A stretch of 32,132 bases of DNA from a virus. Of this stretch, positions 6,481 through 14,849 are shown one piece after another. The translations under genes were made by a program, and so were the position numbers. Within the stretch, counting starts at the first letter, position 1. Each line of letters begins with the position of its first letter. Below the pieces are notes generated by a model. That model was not told the origin of the DNA and ran no database searches. It saw only the letters and a program-made list of their open reading frames with translations. The DNA lies in the IMG/VR virus record IMGVR_UViG_3300034012_000356, positions 1-32,132 of that record, one strand, 5' to 3'.

Positions 6481-6712
6481 CATCATCCGCATGGCGCGGG
6501 AGGCTGGCGGCGATGACTGGGGAATATTCCGTGACTTCATGCCAGAGATTGAACGCTTCGCCAAGCTAGTCGCAGCAGCAGAGCACAAAGCAATACTTGA
6601 AACAGTGAATGAACTAACAGGCGCTGAACAATATCGCAACGCTATGTTTTCTGATGGCTACGACTACGCGCTGGGGCATGTAAAGGAATTCATTGAAGGC
6701 CGTGCGCCATGA
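6467..6712 (+). CDS. Small conserved phage protein, 81 aa
   Basis: ATG 6467 (14-nt overlap with the previous gene) gives MNRDDIIRMAREAGGDDWGI and later ERFAKLVAAAEHKAILETVN. This is the common arrangement of a family of small phage proteins in which an MAREAG helix is followed by LERFAxLVAAAE. GAGGGAC upstream supports the start. The C-terminal part (SDGYDYALGHVKEFIEG) is helical. The biochemical role of the family is unknown; its members usually occur among early or DNA-metabolism genes. Confidence 0.7.
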   Translation: MNRDDIIRMAREAGGDDWGIFRDFMPEIERFAKLVAAAEHKAILETVNELTGAEQYRNAMFSDGYDYALGHVKEFIEGRAP

Positions 6713-6728
6713 CGAAAGAAAAGAATAT

Positions 6729-7361
6729 ATGAGTTACATCATTGCAAGCCTACCGCCAATTAAGTGCTTCGTTCGCAAGGAGTTCCTGTACAACTTTACG
6801 AAGGGGCATGGCGAACTGGAGCCAGCGATCTGGGTGAGCATCAAAGCACTGCGGGGACAGGTATTCCGTATTGAGTCGCTGCTACCTAACTACGGGGCCT
6901 TGTACGACAAGCTACCAATCCACGCCTATGTTTGGTCAGAGGATCATGGCGACCTGCCTATTGATACCTTGCAGCTATGGGATTGCATGGGCTATCGCTT
7001 CACCGTGGTGGAGAAGATCGGCTTACGCAATCTAGGTGTGAAATTCTTGGGTAAAGACAAGCAGTGGCATTTCGGGCGGTACATGTTTACGGTGGACTTC
7101 TGTGCCGATGGCATGGACGTAGACACCGGCTTTACCGAACAAGCCGAGGAACACAAATCTTTTAACTTTATCCAGCTAGACAACGGACAGTTTGCTACAC
7201 AACCGAACAACCGATGCCTTTGGTATGACCAGAGCTTGATTACCTCTGAAACAAAGTTCCCCGACTTTCAGGCGGCGCAGAAGTTTTGGACGGTGGATGG
7301 AACTCGCAAGTGGTCAGCAGGGGATGATTGGTTTTATAGCATTGAGGAAAAGAACGCATGA
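6729..7361 (+). CDS. Conserved hypothetical protein, 210 aa, upstream of glycan cassette
   Basis: The start is taken at ATG 6729 (MSYIIASLPPIKCFVRKEFL), 16 nt after the preceding stop; a TTG at 6693 with AAAGGA upstream is an alternative. The product is rich in aromatic residues and short strands (HAYVWSEDHGDLPIDTLQLW, FGRYMFTVDFCADGMDVDTG) with no recognisable enzyme motif, signal peptide or membrane segment. I believe similar proteins occur in other environmental phages but cannot name a domain. It ends by a 4-nt overlap with the first glycosyltransferase, suggesting translation coupling with the cassette. Confidence 0.65.
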   Translation: MSYIIASLPPIKCFVRKEFLYNFTKGHGELEPAIWVSIKALRGQVFRIESLLPNYGALYDKLPIHAYVWSEDHGDLPIDTLQLWDCMGYRFTVVEKIGLRNLGVKFLGKDKQWHFGRYMFTVDFCADGMDVDTGFTEQAEEHKSFNFIQLDNGQFATQPNNRCLWYDQSLITSETKFPDFQAAQKFWTVDGTRKWSAGDDWFYSIEEKNA

Positions 7362-8128
7362 TCGACGGCAAGCCCACCATCATGATTGGCACGCCTGCTT
7401 ACGGCGGTGCCATGTTCATGGAATACGTAGACAGTATGCTGCGCAACGTCAGCTTCCTTGAGAGCAAGGGCATCAAGACACGCTGGCAATTCATGAACAA
7501 AGAGGCGCTGATCACTCGCGCCCGCAACGAGATCGCTCGGTATTTCTTGGATGAAACCCAAGACGATTACCTGATGTTTGTTGACGCCGATATCTGGTTC
7601 CCGACAGACGGAATCTACAAGCTACTCCAGCACAACAAGGAAATAGTGTGCGGTATCTATCCCAAGAAGTTTATGTTTTGGGATCGCATCCGGCAGGCAG
7701 CGTTGCGGGGGGAGCAGGACATCGACAAGTTCGGCTGCTCGTATGTACTCAACGCCGTGGACGATCAGGGTGATCCAGACAAAGTACCGCTGGGGCCAGA
7801 CGGCCTGGTAGAAGTTATGCACGGCGGCACAGGGTTCATGATGATCCACAGAAGCGTGTTCAAGGCGCTGCGATTCAAGGTGCCCACCTACCGCACCAGC
7901 CTGATCACGAACCCAGCGAACGGCCAGTTCCTTGCGCCGCTCACCCGCGAGTTCTTCGGCACCAGCATTACAGAGCTAGGACTGCTGTTGTCAGAGGACT
8001 ATCACTTCTGTGAGCTGTGGAAAAAAGAGAGTGGCAGAATATACGCCGATCCCACTATCGAGTTACGCCACGTAGGACAGCATGTCTTCGCGGGTGATCT
8101 CATGCGGGCTGGAAGAAATAACACTTAG
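7358..8128 (+). CDS. GT-A fold glycosyltransferase-like protein (paralogue 1)
   Basis: The 256-residue product is a GT2-like enzyme without membrane segments. It shows an N-terminal nucleotide-binding strand (TIMIGTPAYGGAMF), ITRARNEIARYFL (52-64), the metal-binding DAD (76-78, in MFVDADIWF), CGIYPKK (98-104), GGTGFMMI (156-163) as the acceptor-side loop, and LSEDYHFC near the C-terminus with an acidic catalytic-base candidate. The same series of blocks occurs in the product of 10243-11007, so the two are paralogues. The start overlaps the previous gene by ATGA with GAGG upstream. Donor and acceptor sugars cannot be read from sequence. It is the first gene of the glycan cassette. Confidence 0.8.
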   Translation: MIDGKPTIMIGTPAYGGAMFMEYVDSMLRNVSFLESKGIKTRWQFMNKEALITRARNEIARYFLDETQDDYLMFVDADIWFPTDGIYKLLQHNKEIVCGIYPKKFMFWDRIRQAALRGEQDIDKFGCSYVLNAVDDQGDPDKVPLGPDGLVEVMHGGTGFMMIHRSVFKALRFKVPTYRTSLITNPANGQFLAPLTREFFGTSITELGLLLSEDYHFCELWKKESGRIYADPTIELRHVGQHVFAGDLMRAGRNNT

Positions 8129-8136
8129 GAGGAAAC

Positions 8137-8379
8137 ATGTTACGAGATGGACAGTTCATCAAGGAACCGCCGCCAAAGATCGGCAGCCACTATGTGCCGC
8201 AGTTCTATCAGACGGTGCAGGAAAGAAGCGGAGCGATAGAAAGCGAGAACAAATGGGAAGCGTTCTACCGCAAGAACATCTCTTCGTTTGACGTTGGCGC
8301 AATCATGATTCTGATGTACGTGGGACTCGCCCTCGTCGTTGCCGTCCTGCGCGAGTTGTTTCACCTGTTGTTTGGATGA
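8137..8379 (+). CDS. Small membrane protein, 80 aa
   Basis: An excellent site (TAGGAGGAAAC) precedes ATG 8137. The N-terminal 50 residues are soluble and mixed-charge (GSHYVPQFYQTVQERSGAIE). Residues about 53-79 form one transmembrane helix (VGAIMILMYVGLALVVAVLR) with a short FHLLFG end. The predicted topology is a single-pass inner-membrane protein with a cytoplasmic N-terminal region. No family is recognised. It sits between two glycosyltransferases and could tether them, which is inference only. Confidence 0.7.
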   Translation: MLRDGQFIKEPPPKIGSHYVPQFYQTVQERSGAIESENKWEAFYRKNISSFDVGAIMILMYVGLALVVAVLRELFHLLFG

Positions 8380-8576
8380 GCCGAAGGTTATTTCAGATGG
8401 CAAACGAAGCCGCAGAGGGTGAAGACCTGATCTACGCGCCGGACGCTGCCGCTATGGCGTGGATGCGGAAGTTTTCGAAGATGGTCACGCTGACAGAACG
8501 GGAACGCTGCGCCGCGCTTTGTGAGGATTTGGGATACACGCAGGCCGCAGAAGCAATCAGAAGGGGAGAAGAATGA
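8376..8576 (+). CDS. Small helical phage protein, 66 aa
   Basis: ATG 8376 overlaps the previous stop by ATGA, and the last codons overlap the following fucosyltransferase start the same way. The protein is helical, with LTERERCAALCEDLGYTQAA in its second half, the same ERERxAxxC pattern as the 68-aa product at 2316-2522. Such proteins are frequent in phages and lack a known role. Two copies of the pattern within one window suggest a shared small-protein family. Confidence 0.65.
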   Translation: MSRRLFQMANEAAEGEDLIYAPDAAAMAWMRKFSKMVTLTERERCAALCEDLGYTQAAEAIRRGEE

Positions 8577-9523
8577 AGGTAGGCATCCATAACCATTATG
8601 AGTTCATCACCCGCGACGGATACCTATTCAAGGACGAGAACAGTGACGTAGGCCACAACCTGCTGCGTCCGTGGATGGAGCTGCACAACATGTGCAAGCT
8701 AACCGGTATCCACCTGTACACGCTTGACCAGGTGGATCCACGAGAACTGGACTTCGTAATCTACATGGACCGCCCGCGTGTCGAGCCGGACATCGGCAAC
8801 GCCCGCAAAGCACTGGTGCTGTACGAGCCGCCAGCCATCCTGCCGGACAACTGGGATCCCGCCTACCATGACCAGTTCTCCCAAGTGCTGACATGGAACG
8901 ACGAGCTTGCAGGCAAGGACATCTACGAGAAGCACAACTTCACCGTGGACTGGGAAGCCCGGCAACGTTGCCACATGACGGAGGAAGATTTCCGCGCCCG
9001 CAAGTTGCTGACCATCATCCAGTCAGCCAAGAACATGCAGTTCTCCGGCAGCCTGTACACCAAGCGGATCGAAGCCATCCTCTGGTTCCAGCAGAACGAC
9101 ATGTTCCAGTTCGACCTGCATGGCTACGGGTGGAATATTAAAAACTTCCACTGCTACAAGGGCAAGACAGAGAACAAGCTGAAGACGTACAGCAACTACC
9201 GGTTCGCCCTGACGTTCGAGAATTGCGACAACGCCGTCGGCTATATCAGCGAGAAGATCCTAGATGCCTTCATGGCAGGCATCGTGCCGGTGTACTGGGG
9301 TGCGCCCAACGTCACCGACCACATCCCGCCCGAGTGCTTCATCGACATGCGGCATTTTGATGGCTGGCAAGATTTACACGGCTACCTCACCAGCATGGAC
9401 TACGCCCGCTACGCCGAATACCTTGAGGCCATTGACTCATTCATCCTGTCAGACAAGGCTAATCAATTTAGCAACGAGCATGAAGTCAAACAACTGTACC
9501 GACTGATAGAGAGGAACCGATGA
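8573..9523 (+). CDS. GT10-family alpha-1,3/1,4-fucosyltransferase
   Basis: The C-terminal half holds the GT10 donor-binding signature: YRFALTFENC (209-218), GYISEKILDAFMAGIVPVYW (223-242), GAPN (243-246) and IPPECFID (251-258), matching the FEN-(x)-YxTEKl-A-xxxGxVPVxxG..N pattern that binds GDP-fucose. The N-terminal half is a divergent acceptor domain ending in FSGSLYTKR, the equivalent of the family's hinge region. At 316 residues it is a compact soluble enzyme with no membrane anchor. GGGGAG precedes ATG 8573, and ATGA overlaps link it to both neighbours. It should transfer L-fucose or a GDP-linked analogue to a glycan. No GDP-fucose synthesis genes are visible, so the donor would come from the host or from elsewhere in the genome. 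Confidence 0.88.
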   Translation: MKVGIHNHYEFITRDGYLFKDENSDVGHNLLRPWMELHNMCKLTGIHLYTLDQVDPRELDFVIYMDRPRVEPDIGNARKALVLYEPPAILPDNWDPAYHDQFSQVLTWNDELAGKDIYEKHNFTVDWEARQRCHMTEEDFRARKLLTIIQSAKNMQFSGSLYTKRIEAILWFQQNDMFQFDLHGYGWNIKNFHCYKGKTENKLKTYSNYRFALTFENCDNAVGYISEKILDAFMAGIVPVYWGAPNVTDHIPPECFIDMRHFDGWQDLHGYLTSMDYARYAEYLEAIDSFILSDKANQFSNEHEVKQLYRLIERNR

Positions 9524-10233
9524 ACATCGCCGTAGTCACCAGCACACGAGGCCGCGAGACGATCCGGCAGGCTATAGACAGCGTGAAGGCGCAAACCATA
9601 AAGGCTAGGCATTATGTCTTCGCACACGGTAAAGATTGTTGGGACGCTACGACGACAGCTACAGCGGGCAGTGACGTTGATGTTGTTTATCTTCCAGTTG
9701 CCAACGGGGGTGGGGGTTATGCTATGGCTCCTGTTTACGCTGCTGCTCCTTATTTGGTCGGTGAAGACCTGATCTTCTACCTCGACGACGACAACTTCTA
9801 CGACCCTGACCATATCGAATCCATCGTCAACCTGATGGAGCAGCATGAACTTGGCTGGGCGTACAGCCTGCGCAAGATCGTGGACAACGACGGCAACCCA
9901 GTCTGCGAGGACAACTGCGAGTCTCTCGGCTGCCACCGGAACTCACACGGGCATTACTTGGTGGACAACTCATGTTACGCCGTGCGTACAGAACACGCCC
10001 GCCAGCACAGCCATGCGTGGTACGTACCCATCGTATCTGACCGCTCGTTTCAAGCTGCGCTGATGCAGGCCAAGATCAAGTGCGGCACTACCGGCAAACA
10101 CAGCGTTAGCTACCGCCTGTCTAGCGACGGCAGCGGCGGCATGACCAAAGAGAAATTCCTCGGCAACAACGAGTGGATGGCACAGCATCGTCCGGGCTTT
10201 GAATGGACAAAAAAGCAGATCTTTAACTTCTAG
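9520..10233 (+). CDS. GT2-like glycosyltransferase
   Basis: The product begins MNIAVVTSTRGRETIRQAID, the nucleotide-binding start of family-2 glycosyltransferases, and has the metal-binding DDD at 89-91 (IFYLDDDNFYDPDH). An acceptor loop region follows with several Cys and His (VCEDNCESLGCHRNSHGHYL), which may bind metal. At 237 residues it is short for GT2 and has no membrane segment. The start overlaps the GT10 gene by ATGA, with GAGAGGAAC upstream. It is probably the third sugar-adding enzyme of the cassette, with unknown donor and acceptor. Confidence 0.8.
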   Translation: MNIAVVTSTRGRETIRQAIDSVKAQTIKARHYVFAHGKDCWDATTTATAGSDVDVVYLPVANGGGGYAMAPVYAAAPYLVGEDLIFYLDDDNFYDPDHIESIVNLMEQHELGWAYSLRKIVDNDGNPVCEDNCESLGCHRNSHGHYLVDNSCYAVRTEHARQHSHAWYVPIVSDRSFQAALMQAKIKCGTTGKHSVSYRLSSDGSGGMTKEKFLGNNEWMAQHRPGFEWTKKQIFNF

Positions 10234-10242
10234 GAGAATGGA

Positions 10243-11007
10243 ATGGCAAAACTTTTTGTGGCGACCCCGATGTACGGCGGCCAGTGCTTTGGCTACTTTG
10301 CACAGTCAATCATGACCTTGCAGAACATGCTGCGTGAGAACCGCGTAGACATGGCGTGCAGCTTTCTGTTCAACGAGTCGCTCATTCAACGCGCCCGCAA
10401 CGCGCTGGTCCATGGCTTCCTGAAGACAGACTTCACGCACATGATGTTCATCGATGCGGACATCCACTTCGATCCCAAAGACGTGCTGCCCATGCTGCTG
10501 TCCGACAAGCCGATCATCTGCGGCATCTATCCCAAGAAGGAAATCAACTGGTCGAACGTCCATGCAGCCGCGCTGGCAGGCGTACCTCCACAGGATCTGC
10601 GTAAGTACAGCGGTTCGTTCGTGGTCAATCTGGTCAACTACCAGAACGAGCAGCGCGTAGAACTGGACAAGCCGGTAGAGATTTGGAACGGCGGCACGGG
10701 CTTCATGATGATCAAGCGCGAGGTCTTCGAGCAGCTCAAGGAACACGTGCCCACCTATGTCAACGACACCAACGATCTTGGCGGCAACATGGGTAATGAC
10801 CGTATCCATGAGTTCTTTGCTACCAGCATCGAGCCGCTGGGCGAGCGCCTGTTGTCCGAGGACTACCACTTCTGCAAGATCTGGCGCGACCATTGTGGCG
10901 GCACAGTCTGGGCAGCACCCTGGGCGCAGCTTGCACACATCGGCACCCACAAGTTCGACGGCATCTTGACAGAGAAGCCACAGGCTCCTAAACCACAAGA
11001 GGTGTAA
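10243..11007 (+). CDS. GT-A fold glycosyltransferase-like protein (paralogue 2)
   Basis: Paralogue of the 7358-8128 product, with the same ordered blocks: TPMYGGQCF at the start, IQRARNALVHGFL (48-60), DAD (71-73, in MMFIDADIHF), CGIYPKK, GGTGFMMI and LSEDYHFC near the end. Differences concentrate between the blocks, suggesting different acceptors or donors. AGGAG lies six bases before ATG 10243; another in-frame-independent ATG at 10238 is too close to the site. The C-terminus has a Pro/Lys tail (EKPQAPKPQEV). The stop is immediately followed by the RfbH-like start. Confidence 0.8.
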   Translation: MAKLFVATPMYGGQCFGYFAQSIMTLQNMLRENRVDMACSFLFNESLIQRARNALVHGFLKTDFTHMMFIDADIHFDPKDVLPMLLSDKPIICGIYPKKEINWSNVHAAALAGVPPQDLRKYSGSFVVNLVNYQNEQRVELDKPVEIWNGGTGFMMIKREVFEQLKEHVPTYVNDTNDLGGNMGNDRIHEFFATSIEPLGERLLSEDYHFCKIWRDHCGGTVWAAPWAQLAHIGTHKFDGILTEKPQAPKPQEV

Positions 11008-12246
11008 ATGTTTACAGCCGGACAGACTTATATCCCTGCCTCCGGGCAGGTGGTAGGCGACCGCGAGAAGGAGCTGATGCACGAAGCTGTCGACCGTGGC
11101 TGGTTGACGGCAGGCGCATTCAACCGGCAACTGGAAGAAGGGCTGACCAAGTTCTTAGGCTGCAAGGCCGTGAGGACTACCAGCTCTGGCAGCTCTGCCA
11201 ACCTGCTGGCCTTCTCTGCCCTGACCAGCCCGTCGCTGGGCAAGCGGGCAATCCAGAGGGGCGATGAGGTAATCAGCGTTGCCTGCGGCTTTCCCACCAC
11301 CATCGCGCCGATCATCCAGTTCGGTGCGGTGCCGGTGTTCTTGGATGTCAACAGCACCCTGAACATCGACACCCGTGCGCTGGAGCAAGCCATCACCAGC
11401 AAGACCAAAGCCATCATGATTGCGCACACGCTAGGCAATCCGTTCAACGTGGATGCCATCATGGATGTGGCAGACAGGTACGGTCTGTGGGTTATCGAGG
11501 ACTGCTGCGACGCGCTAGGTGCCCGCTGGCGTCATCAGAACGTCGGCACGTTCGGTGATCTCGCCACCCTGTCTTTCTTCCCGGCGCACCACATCACCAC
11601 GGGCGAAGGCGGGGCGGTCATCATCAACAACACCAAGCTGTCCCGACTGGTCGAGTCCTTCCGCGACTGGGGCAGGGACTGCTGGTGCGAACCAGGTAAG
11701 AACAACACCTGCAAGCGCCGGTTCGATCAACAGTTTGGCGAACTGCCCTACGGCTACGATCACAAGTATGTCTACACCCATCTGGGCTACAACCTGCGGA
11801 TCACCGAGATGCAGGCGGCTTGCGGCGTGGCACAGCTTGAGAAGCTGCACCAGTTCATCTCTGCCCGTAAGAGCAACTATGGGTTCCTGCGTGAGCGACT
11901 CGATACCTATGAGGAGTTCTGGCTGCCCACAGTCTACGCAGATGCGTCGCCTAGCTGGTTCGGCTTTCCCATCACGGTATCGCCGACCGCCAAGTTCACC
12001 CGAGATGCGCTGACCCAGTTCCTTGAGAGCCGTCAGATCGGATGCCGCCTGCTGTTTGCTGGCAACGCTACCAAGCAGCCGTTCTTAAAGGGTCAAAACT
12101 ACCGCGTCCACGGCACGCTAGAGAACACGGACTACGTGATGAACAACACGTTCTGGCTGGGCGTACAGCCTGCGCTGACAGAGGAGATGCTGACCTATGT
12201 CTGCGACACCATCGACACCTTTTTCAAGGATCAAGCATGGACATAG
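11008..12246 (+). CDS. rfbH: RfbH/E1-type CDP-4-keto-6-deoxyglucose 3-dehydrase
   Basis: A 412-residue DegT/DnrJ/EryC1-fold enzyme of the special RfbH (AscC/E1) branch. The usual PLP-binding Lys is replaced by His in SFFPAHHITTGEGG (His194/His195), so PMP acts as a dehydrating cofactor instead of a transaminase cofactor. The [2Fe-2S] ligands are complete: Cys167, Cys225, Cys227 and Cys235 give exactly C-x57-C-x1-C-x7-C, and the block FRDWGRDCWCEPGKNNTC is diagnostic. The enzyme removes the 3-hydroxyl of CDP-6-deoxy-4-keto-hexose in 3,6-dideoxyhexose synthesis. Its reductase partner (E3/RfbI) is not seen. The start follows the previous stop directly, with GAGGTG upstream. The distal end overlaps the transketolase subunit start by 10 nt. 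Confidence 0.93.
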   Translation: MFTAGQTYIPASGQVVGDREKELMHEAVDRGWLTAGAFNRQLEEGLTKFLGCKAVRTTSSGSSANLLAFSALTSPSLGKRAIQRGDEVISVACGFPTTIAPIIQFGAVPVFLDVNSTLNIDTRALEQAITSKTKAIMIAHTLGNPFNVDAIMDVADRYGLWVIEDCCDALGARWRHQNVGTFGDLATLSFFPAHHITTGEGGAVIINNTKLSRLVESFRDWGRDCWCEPGKNNTCKRRFDQQFGELPYGYDHKYVYTHLGYNLRITEMQAACGVAQLEKLHQFISARKSNYGFLRERLDTYEEFWLPTVYADASPSWFGFPITVSPTAKFTRDALTQFLESRQIGCRLLFAGNATKQPFLKGQNYRVHGTLENTDYVMNNTFWLGVQPALTEEMLTYVCDTIDTFFKDQAWT

Positions 12247-13097
12247 CCAAGGGCGCACAAGCAGTGTTGTCTGATGAAGACTGGTATGAAACTCAGTTGC
12301 TGACGCGAGAACGAGTGGAGGCGCTTGCCAGACACATTCGGATGGATAGTCTCAAGATGGTTCACCGGGCGAAGGCCAGCCATATCGGCAGCGCTTTATC
12401 CTGCGCTGACATCCTAGCCGTCTTGTACCACGGCTTCATGAAGGTCAGGGGAGATAAGCGTAGCCGGTTCATCATGTCGAAAGGACACGCCACTGTAGCG
12501 CTCTACGCAGCGTTGAAGCACTCTGGCTACGACCTTGACCTTGAGACTTACGGGCAGGATGGTTCTGACTTGATGCACCACGCAAGCCACAAGGTGCCGG
12601 GTGTCGAATTTTCGACAGGCAGCTTGGGACATGGCCTACCGTACGGCGTCGGTTTGGCACTAGCATCCAAGCGCAAGCGGGAGAACTGGCCGGTGCGTGT
12701 GCTCGTATCTGACGGAGAGTTACAGGAAGGCAGCAACTGGGAGGCTATCCAGTTTGCTGCTCATCACAAGCTATCCAATCTGACCATGATCGTGGACTAC
12801 AACAATTTGCAAAGCATCACCACGGTTGAAGAGACGCTGGACATCGGCCCGCTTGCCAGCAAGTTGCAGACGTTTGGTTGGAAGGTTAAGGTCATCGATG
12901 GACACAATCACCAGCAGATCTTCCGGGCGATGGTGCAACTGTTTCCATCCAAGAAGGACGAGCCGCCTGCCGCCTTGATCTGCAAGACCGTCAAAGGCAA
13001 GGGCGTGTCATTCATGGAGAACAAGGTGGAGTGGCATTACAAGTATCCGAACGACGAGCAACTAGCGCAGGCATTAGCGGAGGTGCAAGGTGCGTAA
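12237..13097 (+). CDS. Transketolase N-terminal (TPP-binding) subunit
   Basis: The true start is ATG 12237, which overlaps the RfbH-like gene by 10 nt; the frame is open further upstream but inside that gene. The 286 residues form the PP domain of transketolase: SHIGSALSCADILAVLY (active-site His), MSKGHATVALY (second His), TGSLGHGLPYGVGLAL, and the TPP/metal motif SDGELQEGSNWEA followed by IVDYNNLQ (Asp, Glu and Asn ligands). The canonical GDG is SDG here. It lacks the Pyr and C-terminal domains, which are in the next gene; the two presumably form a heterotetramer as in two-subunit bacterial transketolases. With RfbH beside it, its two-carbon transfer may serve deoxysugar branching rather than the pentose phosphate pathway. 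Confidence 0.92.
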   Translation: MDIAKGAQAVLSDEDWYETQLLTRERVEALARHIRMDSLKMVHRAKASHIGSALSCADILAVLYHGFMKVRGDKRSRFIMSKGHATVALYAALKHSGYDLDLETYGQDGSDLMHHASHKVPGVEFSTGSLGHGLPYGVGLALASKRKRENWPVRVLVSDGELQEGSNWEAIQFAAHHKLSNLTMIVDYNNLQSITTVEETLDIGPLASKLQTFGWKVKVIDGHNHQQIFRAMVQLFPSKKDEPPAALICKTVKGKGVSFMENKVEWHYKYPNDEQLAQALAEVQGA

Positions 13098-13941
13098 CGC
13101 ATTCATGGAAGAGTTGACTGCCGCTGCTACCGCTGGCAAGCCGGTGATGCTGATCGTCGGCGACTTGGGTTGGGGCGTAGTGGAAGAGTTTGCCAAGCGG
13201 TTCCCGAATAACTTCATCAACGCTGGCGTGGCAGAGCAGAACATGATGGGCATGGCTGCTGGGCTGGCGGCAGAGGGCTACCACGTCTTCTGCTACAGCA
13301 TTGCTAACTTCCCGACCTTCCGCTGCGCAGAGCAGATCAGGAACGATGTGGACTATCACAACCTGCCTGTAACGGTTGTGGCGGTCGGCGGCGGCCTAGC
13401 CTACGGCAGTCTTGGGTACAGCCATCATGCAGTACAGGACTATGCCCTGATGCGGTGTATGCCAAACATGCTGATCGCTGCGCCGGGTGATGATTACGAA
13501 GCCCGCGCCTGCGTGCGGTATCTCATAGACAACCCGCAGCCATCTTATCTACGGCTAGGCAGGGGCGGAGAGAGCAACATCCACACAGAGATTCCAACCA
13601 TCGAGCCGGGTAAATGGATTCATCTGGTTACCATCGCAGGCGATCTTGAGGGTGTGGGCTTTGTATCTACCGGCACGGCTGGCAACGATATGTCCAAGCC
13701 GGGTGAGTACTTCCGCCTGCCGATGTGGGGCATGAAATACAAGAACATGCAAGCACAACAATTACGCCACTTGAATTCTGTAATAACCCGCGAGGATCAT
13801 TTGCCCGACGGTGGCTTTGGTAGCTGGATGCTAGAGGCTCTGCACAAGTACGACGTTGTGCTGCGCATGGAGGCGCTAGACCCAAAGATCTGCGGCATGG
13901 TTGGTAGCACCGATTACCTACTTAATCAGGGGAAACTATGA
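13090..13941 (+). CDS. Transketolase C-terminal subunit (Pyr + C-terminal domains)
   Basis: The start is GTG 13090, with GGAGG upstream and an 8-nt overlap with the partner subunit; ATG 13105 is an alternative. The Pyr domain is clear: AGVAEQNMMGMAAGLAAEGY contains the Glu that activates TPP. YSIANFPTFRCAEQIRNDVD and the GSLGYSHHAVQDYALMRCMP segment follow, carrying the His pair typical of split transketolases. The last 100 residues form the C-terminal regulatory-fold domain. At 283 aa it completes the 286-aa partner; together they total 569 residues against about 660 for single-chain bacterial transketolase. Operon position after RfbH suggests a dedicated sugar-branching function. Confidence 0.92.
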   Translation: MRNAFMEELTAAATAGKPVMLIVGDLGWGVVEEFAKRFPNNFINAGVAEQNMMGMAAGLAAEGYHVFCYSIANFPTFRCAEQIRNDVDYHNLPVTVVAVGGGLAYGSLGYSHHAVQDYALMRCMPNMLIAAPGDDYEARACVRYLIDNPQPSYLRLGRGGESNIHTEIPTIEPGKWIHLVTIAGDLEGVGFVSTGTAGNDMSKPGEYFRLPMWGMKYKNMQAQQLRHLNSVITREDHLPDGGFGSWMLEALHKYDVVLRMEALDPKICGMVGSTDYLLNQGKL

Positions 13942-14849
13942 AGATCGTTATCATGGGGGCAAGCAGTCAAATTGCCCGCGACTTGATCGTATCGTTTAGC
14001 GACGAGCACTTCCTTGAACTGTTCTCGCGGGATCCGAGCGCAACCAGCCGGTGGATGGTCGAGCGCAACTTGCAGAAATTCTTTTCCCGCCCGTATTCTG
14101 ATTGGCGGTCTTTGTCCAACAACGCTGACGTCATCATCAACTTTGTCGGCGCAGGCAACCCAGAGCGCATCAAGCAGATGGGCAGCAACATCTTCCAGAT
14201 CACGGAAACGTTCGACAAGATGGCGCTGGACTATCTGGTCGAGAACCGCGACTGCCAGTACATCTTCATCAGCAGCGGTGCAGTGTTTGGCGATAACTTC
14301 TCTACCCCGGCAGACAACGCCAAGTGCGCTGTATTCCCTATCAACAATATCCTGCCGCAGCACTACTACGGATTAGCCAAGCTAACCGCAGAGACACGGC
14401 ACAGAGTCACATCCGGCAATATCATCGACGTGCGCATCTTTAATTACTTCAGCCATACCACTGACCTGCGCAATCGATTCATGATCAACGACATGATCCG
14501 GGCAGTCAAAGAAGGCACCGTCTTTCGCGCAGACCAAACACCTATTGTCCGTGACTACGTCGGATCACTAGACTTTTACCAGATGATTAACGTCCTGCTG
14601 AAGCGGAATGTAAACGTTGCCATCGACTGTTACAGCCGTCAGCCCGTGACCAAGAACAAGTTGCTGGAGACGATGAGCCAACGGTATGGAATGAAGTATG
14701 AGATTAGCCATACGCCCGTGGGGCTTCCTGCAACCGGCGTGAAAGAGAATTATTATTCTACGAACATGGAGGCATACACATTAGGATATAGACCGACGCT
14801 GAGTTCTTTGGAAACGATCTATCTTGCAGCAGACAAACTCCTCAAGTGA
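13938..14849 (+). CDS. NAD(P)-dependent epimerase/reductase (extended SDR)
   Basis: The 303-residue product has a Rossmann start, MKIVIMGASSQIARDLIV, in which GASSQIA replaces the usual GxxGxxG; IINFVGAGNPE is the equivalent of the adenine-ring loop. The catalytic residues are visible: Ser in FISSGAVFG (110-118) and Tyr144-x3-Lys148 in YYGLAKL. The C-terminal substrate domain contains RDYVGSLDFYQMINVLLKRN. It starts by ATGA overlap with the transketolase subunit. The glycine-loop variation is seen in sugar-nucleotide reductases, so it may reduce a 4-keto or side-chain ketone formed by the upstream enzymes. This is the last enzyme of the cassette. Confidence 0.85.
   Translation: MKIVIMGASSQIARDLIVSFSDEHFLELFSRDPSATSRWMVERNLQKFFSRPYSDWRSLSNNADVIINFVGAGNPERIKQMGSNIFQITETFDKMALDYLVENRDCQYIFISSGAVFGDNFSTPADNAKCAVFPINNILPQHYYGLAKLTAETRHRVTSGNIIDVRIFNYFSHTTDLRNRFMINDMIRAVKEGTVFRADQTPIVRDYVGSLDFYQMINVLLKRNVNVAIDCYSRQPVTKNKLLETMSQRYGMKYEISHTPVGLPATGVKENYYSTNMEAYTLGYRPTLSSLETIYLAADKLLK

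Follow-up and report, generated by a model that had tools for sequence, protein, structure and literature searches.

What would a transketolase, split into two subunits and encoded between a sugar dehydrase and a reductase, do in a phage? The question is raised by a four-gene cassette at 11008-14849 of IMG/VR virus record IMGVR_UViG_3300034012_000356 (positions 1 to 32,132; this whole stretch of 32,132 nucleotides is called the window here). In order, and all on the plus strand, the genes encode an RfbH (E1) dehydrase, the N and C subunits of a transketolase (TK-N and TK-C), and a short-chain dehydrogenase/reductase (SDR). The cassette is likely a phage-borne sugar-branching unit, in which RfbH would act first, the split transketolase (TK) would then transfer a ketol to C4, and the SDR would reduce the product. 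What carries this reading can be seen directly in the sequence: the gene identities, the operon order, the exchange of the TK genes for other enzymes in sister phages, bacterial operons of like composition, and the active-site residues that are kept or lost.

An earlier note on this DNA had described four genes overlapping in this order, namely an RfbH-type 3-dehydrase with a full cysteine cluster and a histidine in place of lysine, the two TK subunits, and an SDR. All of these hold, every open reading frame (ORF) being in place with overlaps of 10 nt (RfbH/TK-N), 8 nt (TK-N/TK-C), and 4 nt (TK-C/SDR), a pattern as in a translationally coupled operon. Only the start of TK-N needed correction: the ORF had been listed from 12042, and the conserved start is the ATG at 12237, the point at which the homologue in L002 also begins (numbers with L are our handles for contigs and loci). 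Other phage contigs retain these frames (identities of 57-95% for RfbH, 58-91% for TK-N, and 66-89% for TK-C), which are therefore not chance ORFs. A contig artefact was rejected, as the genes (GC content 0.51-0.59) differ little in composition from their flanks (0.52-0.55), and the order RfbH-TKN-TKC-SDR is found in three other contigs, a fourth beginning inside TK-N.

RfbH (CDP-4-keto-6-deoxyglucose 3-dehydrase; 11008..12246; 412 amino acids (aa)) scores 637 bits against the NCBIfam RfbH equivalog NF011936, for which the cut-off is 423, and in the PDB it is closest to the E1 dehydrase 3bcx/3bb8 (E 8e-156). It contains an exact C-x57-C-x1-C-x7-C arrangement of Cys167, Cys225, Cys227, and Cys235 (codons 11506..11712), the four cysteines of a [2Fe-2S] cluster. 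His194 (codon 11587-11589) lies at the position of the lysine of pyridoxal phosphate (PLP) enzymes; the aligned chain of 3bb8 has a lysine at that residue. The best RfbH match in the phage collection is OR851175.1, a short contig (2570 bp) filed as a Salmonella phage, which is probably host DNA.

TK-N (12237..13097; 286 aa) contains the thiamine diphosphate (ThDP)-binding domain and TK-C (13090..13941; GTG start) the pyrimidine-binding domain. TK-N matches PF00456 (117.7 bits) and the solved split transketolase 6yak (best PDB match, E 1.2e-63), while TK-C matches PF02779 (111 bits) and the split-transketolase chain 6yaj (best PDB match, E 9e-34). With its two domains on separate chains, a ThDP motif, the catalytic glutamate (Glu49 of TK-C, codon 13234-13236, equivalent to E411 of E. 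coli TktA), and equivalents of TktA D155 and N185, the pair is a split transketolase, with the two-chain architecture and ThDP motifs of the Carboxydothermus hydrogenoformans enzyme (6yak/6yaj). Both subunits (TK-N, 240 bits; TK-C, 87 bits) fall under the cut-off of 488 of the NCBIfam transketolase equivalog; that cut-off is set for a one-chain protein, and the shortness of the subunits by itself lowers the score.

The arrangement recalls the biosynthesis of yersiniose, in which an RfbH-type 3-dehydrase is followed by ThDP-dependent addition of two carbons at C4 of CDP-4-keto-3,6-dideoxyglucose and then by ketoreduction (PMC12247030, PMC4753412). Like this pathway (RfbF, RfbG, RfbH, YerE, and a reductase; Yersinia pseudotuberculosis O:VI O-antigen and others), the phage cassette has an RfbH, a ThDP enzyme, and a probable reductase, but it is phage-borne, lacks RfbF and RfbG, and has as its ThDP enzyme a split transketolase, which belongs to another superfamily and probably uses a ketol donor. 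The earlier suggestion that a transketolase stands here in place of YerE is supported by a census of the position downstream of RfbH. Relatives of RfbH were gathered from viral contigs, and 26 phage contigs, the window included, encode an RfbH at least 56% identical. The core relatives have the glycan island 5' of the cassette in common, whereas what lies between RfbH and the SDR varies. The TK pair follows RfbH in four of the 26 (the window, L008, L012, and L019); the L003 contig, also of the TK type and beyond these four, begins inside TK-N. A single-chain YerE-like enzyme of 593-596 aa fills the slot in six (L007, L009, L010, L011, L015, and L020), and a split acetolactate synthase (ALS)-type pair of about 335 and 243 aa in 14 (12 contigs, together with L014, which is truncated, and L047, in which the frames are broken). 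In L025 the position is taken by an ALS-type protein of more distant relationship, and L030 has no ThDP enzyme. For the phage YerE-slot protein (E 1.5e-111) as for the split ALS-type form, the best PDB match is 8rph, the YerE-like carboligase JanthE (PMC12188165). Such carboligases (YpYerE, PpYerE, ErwE, JanthE) are members of the decarboxylase superfamily that use alpha-keto acids, and the slot protein of L009 carries PF02776, PF00205, and PF02775. The window pair has another domain set, with only a marginal PF02775 match below the cut-off in TK-N and none of the three in TK-C; judged by its domains, it is YerE-like in position and not a YerE.

The edges of the exchange are sharp. In a blastn comparison of the window with L007, identity is 96.9% at 7357-12230, up to the end of RfbH, and 86.7% from 13939, at the SDR start codon, and the ThDP genes in between are unrelated, which marks 12231..13938 (plus strand) as the block swapped for a YerE-like gene. 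L008 and L020 display the same edges, with the ThDP gene alone swapped, and between L019 and L016 the SDR is replaced as well. The RfbH tree requires at least four changes of TK state and has sister pairs of the TK/YerE and TK/split-ALS kinds, whereas the TKs of the phages group in a single clade; one TK lineage therefore appears to move between phages, recombining into a fixed slot. Gene order is thus kept in related phages, and an unconserved order, which the earlier note had named as grounds for abandoning the idea, was not found.

Further variation was seen around the slot. In L013, a 2-oxoglutarate (2OG)-Fe(II) oxygenase-like gene (PF13759; L013:7191-7745) separates RfbH from the split ALS-type pair. 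Similar proteins starting MIQFHRY, without a Pfam match, are encoded at 792-1913 of the window (minus strand) and at L021:8956-9948, the L021 copy being in the SDR position. Distant viral contigs (L035:4851-7182, also L157, L168, L170, and L173) have a TK pair beside RfbH or another DegT-family protein, and in several distant viral pairs TK-C is about 160 aa long and consists of the pyrimidine domain alone.

The same alternatives are found in bacterial operons of the O-antigen type. Scanning genomes with the TK-C alignment yielded 80 loci. RfbF is glucose-1-phosphate cytidylyltransferase and RfbG is CDP-glucose 4,6-dehydratase; both are encoded within 10 kb of 17 of the 19 TK relatives that are at least 48% identical, as is RfbH for 11 of the 19. 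The order RfbF-RfbG-RfbH-TKN-TKC-SDR, which matches that of the window, occurs in L070, L071, and L074, and the L072 contig begins within such an operon; the TKs of these four are among the closest to the phage clade. Cultured bacteria in which RfbF, RfbG, and RfbH are encoded next to a TK pair include Aquitalea pelogenes CCM 7557 (L083) and Defluviimonas nitratireducens (L077). Bacterial relatives therefore combine RfbF, RfbG, and RfbH with a ThDP enzyme and a reductase, while the phage has RfbH, the ThDP enzyme, and the SDR. An independent scan with the SDR alignment covered 398 genomes of the phylum to which the genome of L071 belongs. Ten genomes matched, all of them among the 97 with RfbG (hypergeometric P 5e-7, under a null that ignores phylogeny). 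Nine SDR neighborhoods were fetched, of which four have a YerE-like enzyme, four a TK pair, and one neither; the remaining genome, which contains L071, has a TK pair. The YerE-like enzyme of L189 closely matches 5ahk (E 1e-234), the Pseudomonas protegens YerE-like carboligase. Since a TK pair or a YerE-like enzyme can lie beside the same SDR in RfbF-RfbG-RfbH operons, the exchange also exists outside phages, which lends further support to the replacement of YerE by TK. The fetched neighborhood with neither enzyme has genes for an acetaldehyde dehydrogenase and a DmpG-type aldolase. At L196:5587-8542 and L192:6320-7102, the SDR operons include acetaldehyde dehydrogenase together with aldolases of the DmpG/HpcH type; by analogy with erwiniose, these aldolases could be a source of longer hydroxy-keto-acid donors.

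These comparisons bear on whether the pair is an ordinary auxiliary metabolic transketolase, shuffling pentose phosphates for nucleotide supply and lying beside RfbH by chance. It does belong to the transketolase family, and phages carry pentose phosphate enzymes, for instance the transaldolase of cyanophages. According to an alignment with TktA, the TK subfamily retains the equivalents of H26, H66, H100, D155, N185, H261, E411, and H473. In the window TK-C, on the other hand, H461 is replaced by G and D469 by L, and the same holds across the subfamily, with H461 replaced by G and D469 by L, M, Q, or H in all 83 aligned sequences. The canonical split transketolase 6yaj retains both residues. 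The pair thus lacks the sugar-substrate residues of a pentose phosphate transketolase (EC 2.2.1.1). Because of this loss and of the exchange with YerE-like enzymes in one slot, an ordinary metabolic role is rejected as very improbable; the recurrence of TK with RfbF, RfbG, and RfbH across phyla also speaks against it. In transketolase structures, H100 touches the C1 hydroxyl of the donor, while H461 and D469 touch the sugar-phosphate or acceptor side. Retention of the former and loss of the latter would suit a donor of the ketol type and an acceptor other than the canonical one.

A second possibility is that the pathway is the same but that the TK pair uses pyruvate, which would yield an acetyl branch of the yersiniose type through a non-homologous replacement of YerE and without new chemistry. 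The position of the pair in the YerE slot fits this, as does the detectable similarity of TK-C to DXS, a pyruvate user, and for antibiotics, two-subunit ThDP enzymes (AviB1/AviB2) have been proposed to use pyruvate for acetyl branching (PMC4753412). TK-N and TK-C are, however, nearest to split transketolases and not to E1-alpha/beta or DXS, and TK-N has the equivalent of TktA H100, which is unaligned in E. coli DXS. We consider a pyruvate donor unlikely.

The last gene of the cassette (13938..14849) encodes an extended SDR that matches PF01370 and has a conserved Tyr144-x3-Lys148. The sequence alone had no PDB match by phmmer; a match came through profile and predicted structure only. Its AlphaFold2 (AF2) model (predicted local distance difference test (pLDDT) 91.4) is most similar, by Foldseek and by VIA, to the Campylobacter jejuni CDP-glucitol reductase (8v4h/8v4g), with a VIA Z of 31.0 against 8v4h and 29.2 for the next entry, and a profile search also places this CDP-sugar reductase first (E 5.6e-10). 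The two are only about 16-17% identical and the C. jejuni enzyme acts on a different CDP-sugar. The fold nevertheless points to a probable CDP-sugar ketoreductase, which would act on the branched product, at the new branch ketone or at a different carbonyl. RfbH together with a C4-reductase SDR is a known route to 3,6-dideoxyhexoses, and the SDR is weakly similar to RmlD-type 4-ketoreductases, so that the two could make a plain sugar such as abequose or paratose with the TK pair uninvolved. This would leave unexplained why 25 of 26 phage slots hold a ThDP enzyme and why bacteria have the same SDR next to a YerE-like gene or TK genes, and is hardly credible.

From this evidence we infer the substrate, donor, order of steps, product, and use of the product as follows. 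RfbH would remove the C3 oxygen from host-made CDP-4-keto-6-deoxy-D-glucose to give CDP-4-keto-3,6-dideoxyglucose. E1 chemistry requires a C4 ketone, and RfbH should therefore act ahead of branching at C4. The split TK, of a subfamily associated with polysaccharides, would then, with ThDP, take a hydroxyacetyl unit (a two-carbon ketol) from a ketose phosphate or hydroxypyruvate and add it to the C4 ketone, the carboligation that YerE performs from pyruvate. The SDR would reduce the branch ketone (or another carbonyl) of the resulting CDP-octose, converting 4-C-hydroxyacetyl to a dihydroxyethyl product, and neighboring glycosyltransferases would transfer the branched sugar to a surface or virion glycan. 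More broadly, we propose, with a probability of roughly 0.55, that a TK subfamily present in many phyla and borrowed by phages makes carbon-carbon bonds on CDP-ketosugars with a ketol donor, giving undescribed 4-C-hydroxyacetyl (or, when reduced, 4-C-dihydroxyethyl) 3,6-dideoxy sugars, and that phages swap TK and YerE-type enzymes to alter the branch of a surface sugar.

Several observations weigh against this proposal, among them the similarity of TK-C to DXS described above. The loss of H461 and D469 is not confined to CDP-linked members; it failed as a marker to split these from other TK relatives, and therefore backs non-canonical chemistry and not a CDP substrate as such. Of the 80 TK relatives, about half belong to polysaccharide loci that have no CDP-glucose genes, and elsewhere RfbF-RfbG-TK occurs without RfbH in reach (L078, L081, L082, L084-L086, and L193), which means that the subfamily is not bound to one substrate. 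The pathway would also depend wholly on the host in the phages. The earlier note had asked whether CDP-glucose synthesis genes lie elsewhere in the genome; neither RfbF nor RfbG was found in the window or among 18 records of related phages, nor a PF00175-type reductase domain, as expected of the RfbH partner reductase, in the 13 phage records searched, all of these records being linear and possibly incomplete. The cassette is thus not self-contained, and the host would supply the CDP-sugar substrate.

The bacterial loci without RfbH also lend some weight to the idea that the TK pair acts on a CDP-sugar in another way, for example by taking CDP-4-keto-6-deoxyglucose ahead of RfbH or in its place, or by attacking a different carbonyl, and so gives a different branched sugar; relatives in CDP-free loci must indeed have other acceptors. 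In the window, however, RfbH adjoins and overlaps TK, as it does in sister phages and in the best bacterial operons, which makes such a mode of action improbable here. The CDP-free loci (L098-L149, about 40 bacterial loci) often have a priming glycosyltransferase, and in Clostridia an aldo/keto reductase; their gene content suggests further TK-made sugars.

Transfer of a branched sugar would fall to the glycan island 5' of the cassette, which comprises two phrog_1574 proteins with GT10 and GT2 glycosyltransferases, all on the plus strand. It starts with a phrog_1574/GT2-like protein (7358..8128), followed by a GT10 (fucosyltransferase-family) enzyme (8573..9523; PF00852, 60.8 bits) and a GT2-type enzyme (9520..10233; PF00535), both kept in relatives, and by a second, glycosyltransferase-like phrog_1574 protein (10243..11007) that lies beside RfbH in most core phage relatives. 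At L012:2157-4059 and L010:2614-4513, genes named from sequence as GDP-mannose 4,6-dehydratase-like and GDP-fucose synthase-like lie 3' of the GT10 gene; some sister phages may make their own GDP-fucose for GT10. The window gene at 6693-7361, labeled 'ferredoxin' through PHROG 3704, was not counted as an RfbH reductase, having no Pfam match and no visible cysteine-cluster motif; the label is probably misleading. A structural protein of the window resembles those of 52-65 kb podovirus-like phages such as DSL-LC04, Pelagibacter phage HTVC023P, and Roseobacter phage CRP-901. No tyrosine integrase was found in 13 phage records, which are linear and may be incomplete, and the life style is presumably lytic.

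YerE chemistry is established, and RfbH is already known in phages: rfbH is carried by sargassum viruses (PMC11295528), and cyanophage records contain E1-like dehydrases. Among 50,697 public phage records, TK-C has matches of at most about 35% identity, mostly to short unannotated records, and the SDR has none. In Streptomyces, the split transketolases of miharamycin and amipurimycin are likewise proposed to move a hydroxyacetyl unit to a keto sugar; a 2025 review treats sugar branching by TK as an unproven proposal, with 13 candidates, all from Streptomyces and none characterized (PMC12247030). The present genes differ in lying in RfbFGH operons of many Gram-negative phyla and in a phage, with YerE exchange as evidence. 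An Actinoplanes exopolysaccharide (EPS) cluster has a split TK beside DegT genes, for which no function was proposed (PMC13390465). In the open-access papers searched, we found no phage ThDP sugar-branching cassette, no report of TK as the branching enzyme of RfbFGH operons or of slot exchange, and, on TK with RfbH in an O-antigen context, nothing beyond reviews and expression studies.

For sugar branching by transketolases, which the 2025 review called pending, the slot exchange in phages and, independently, in bacteria is the first strong comparative evidence that we have found. The cassette points to small enzymes of two chains, to a defined CDP-sugar as their acceptor, and to a reductase as their partner, and its SDR family is a candidate for the uncharacterized ketoreductase step of branched-sugar pathways. 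As phages exchange the ThDP gene in this slot, they would switch the branch chemistry and leave the rest unchanged, so that a single enzyme of a sugar pathway is passed among them as a module.

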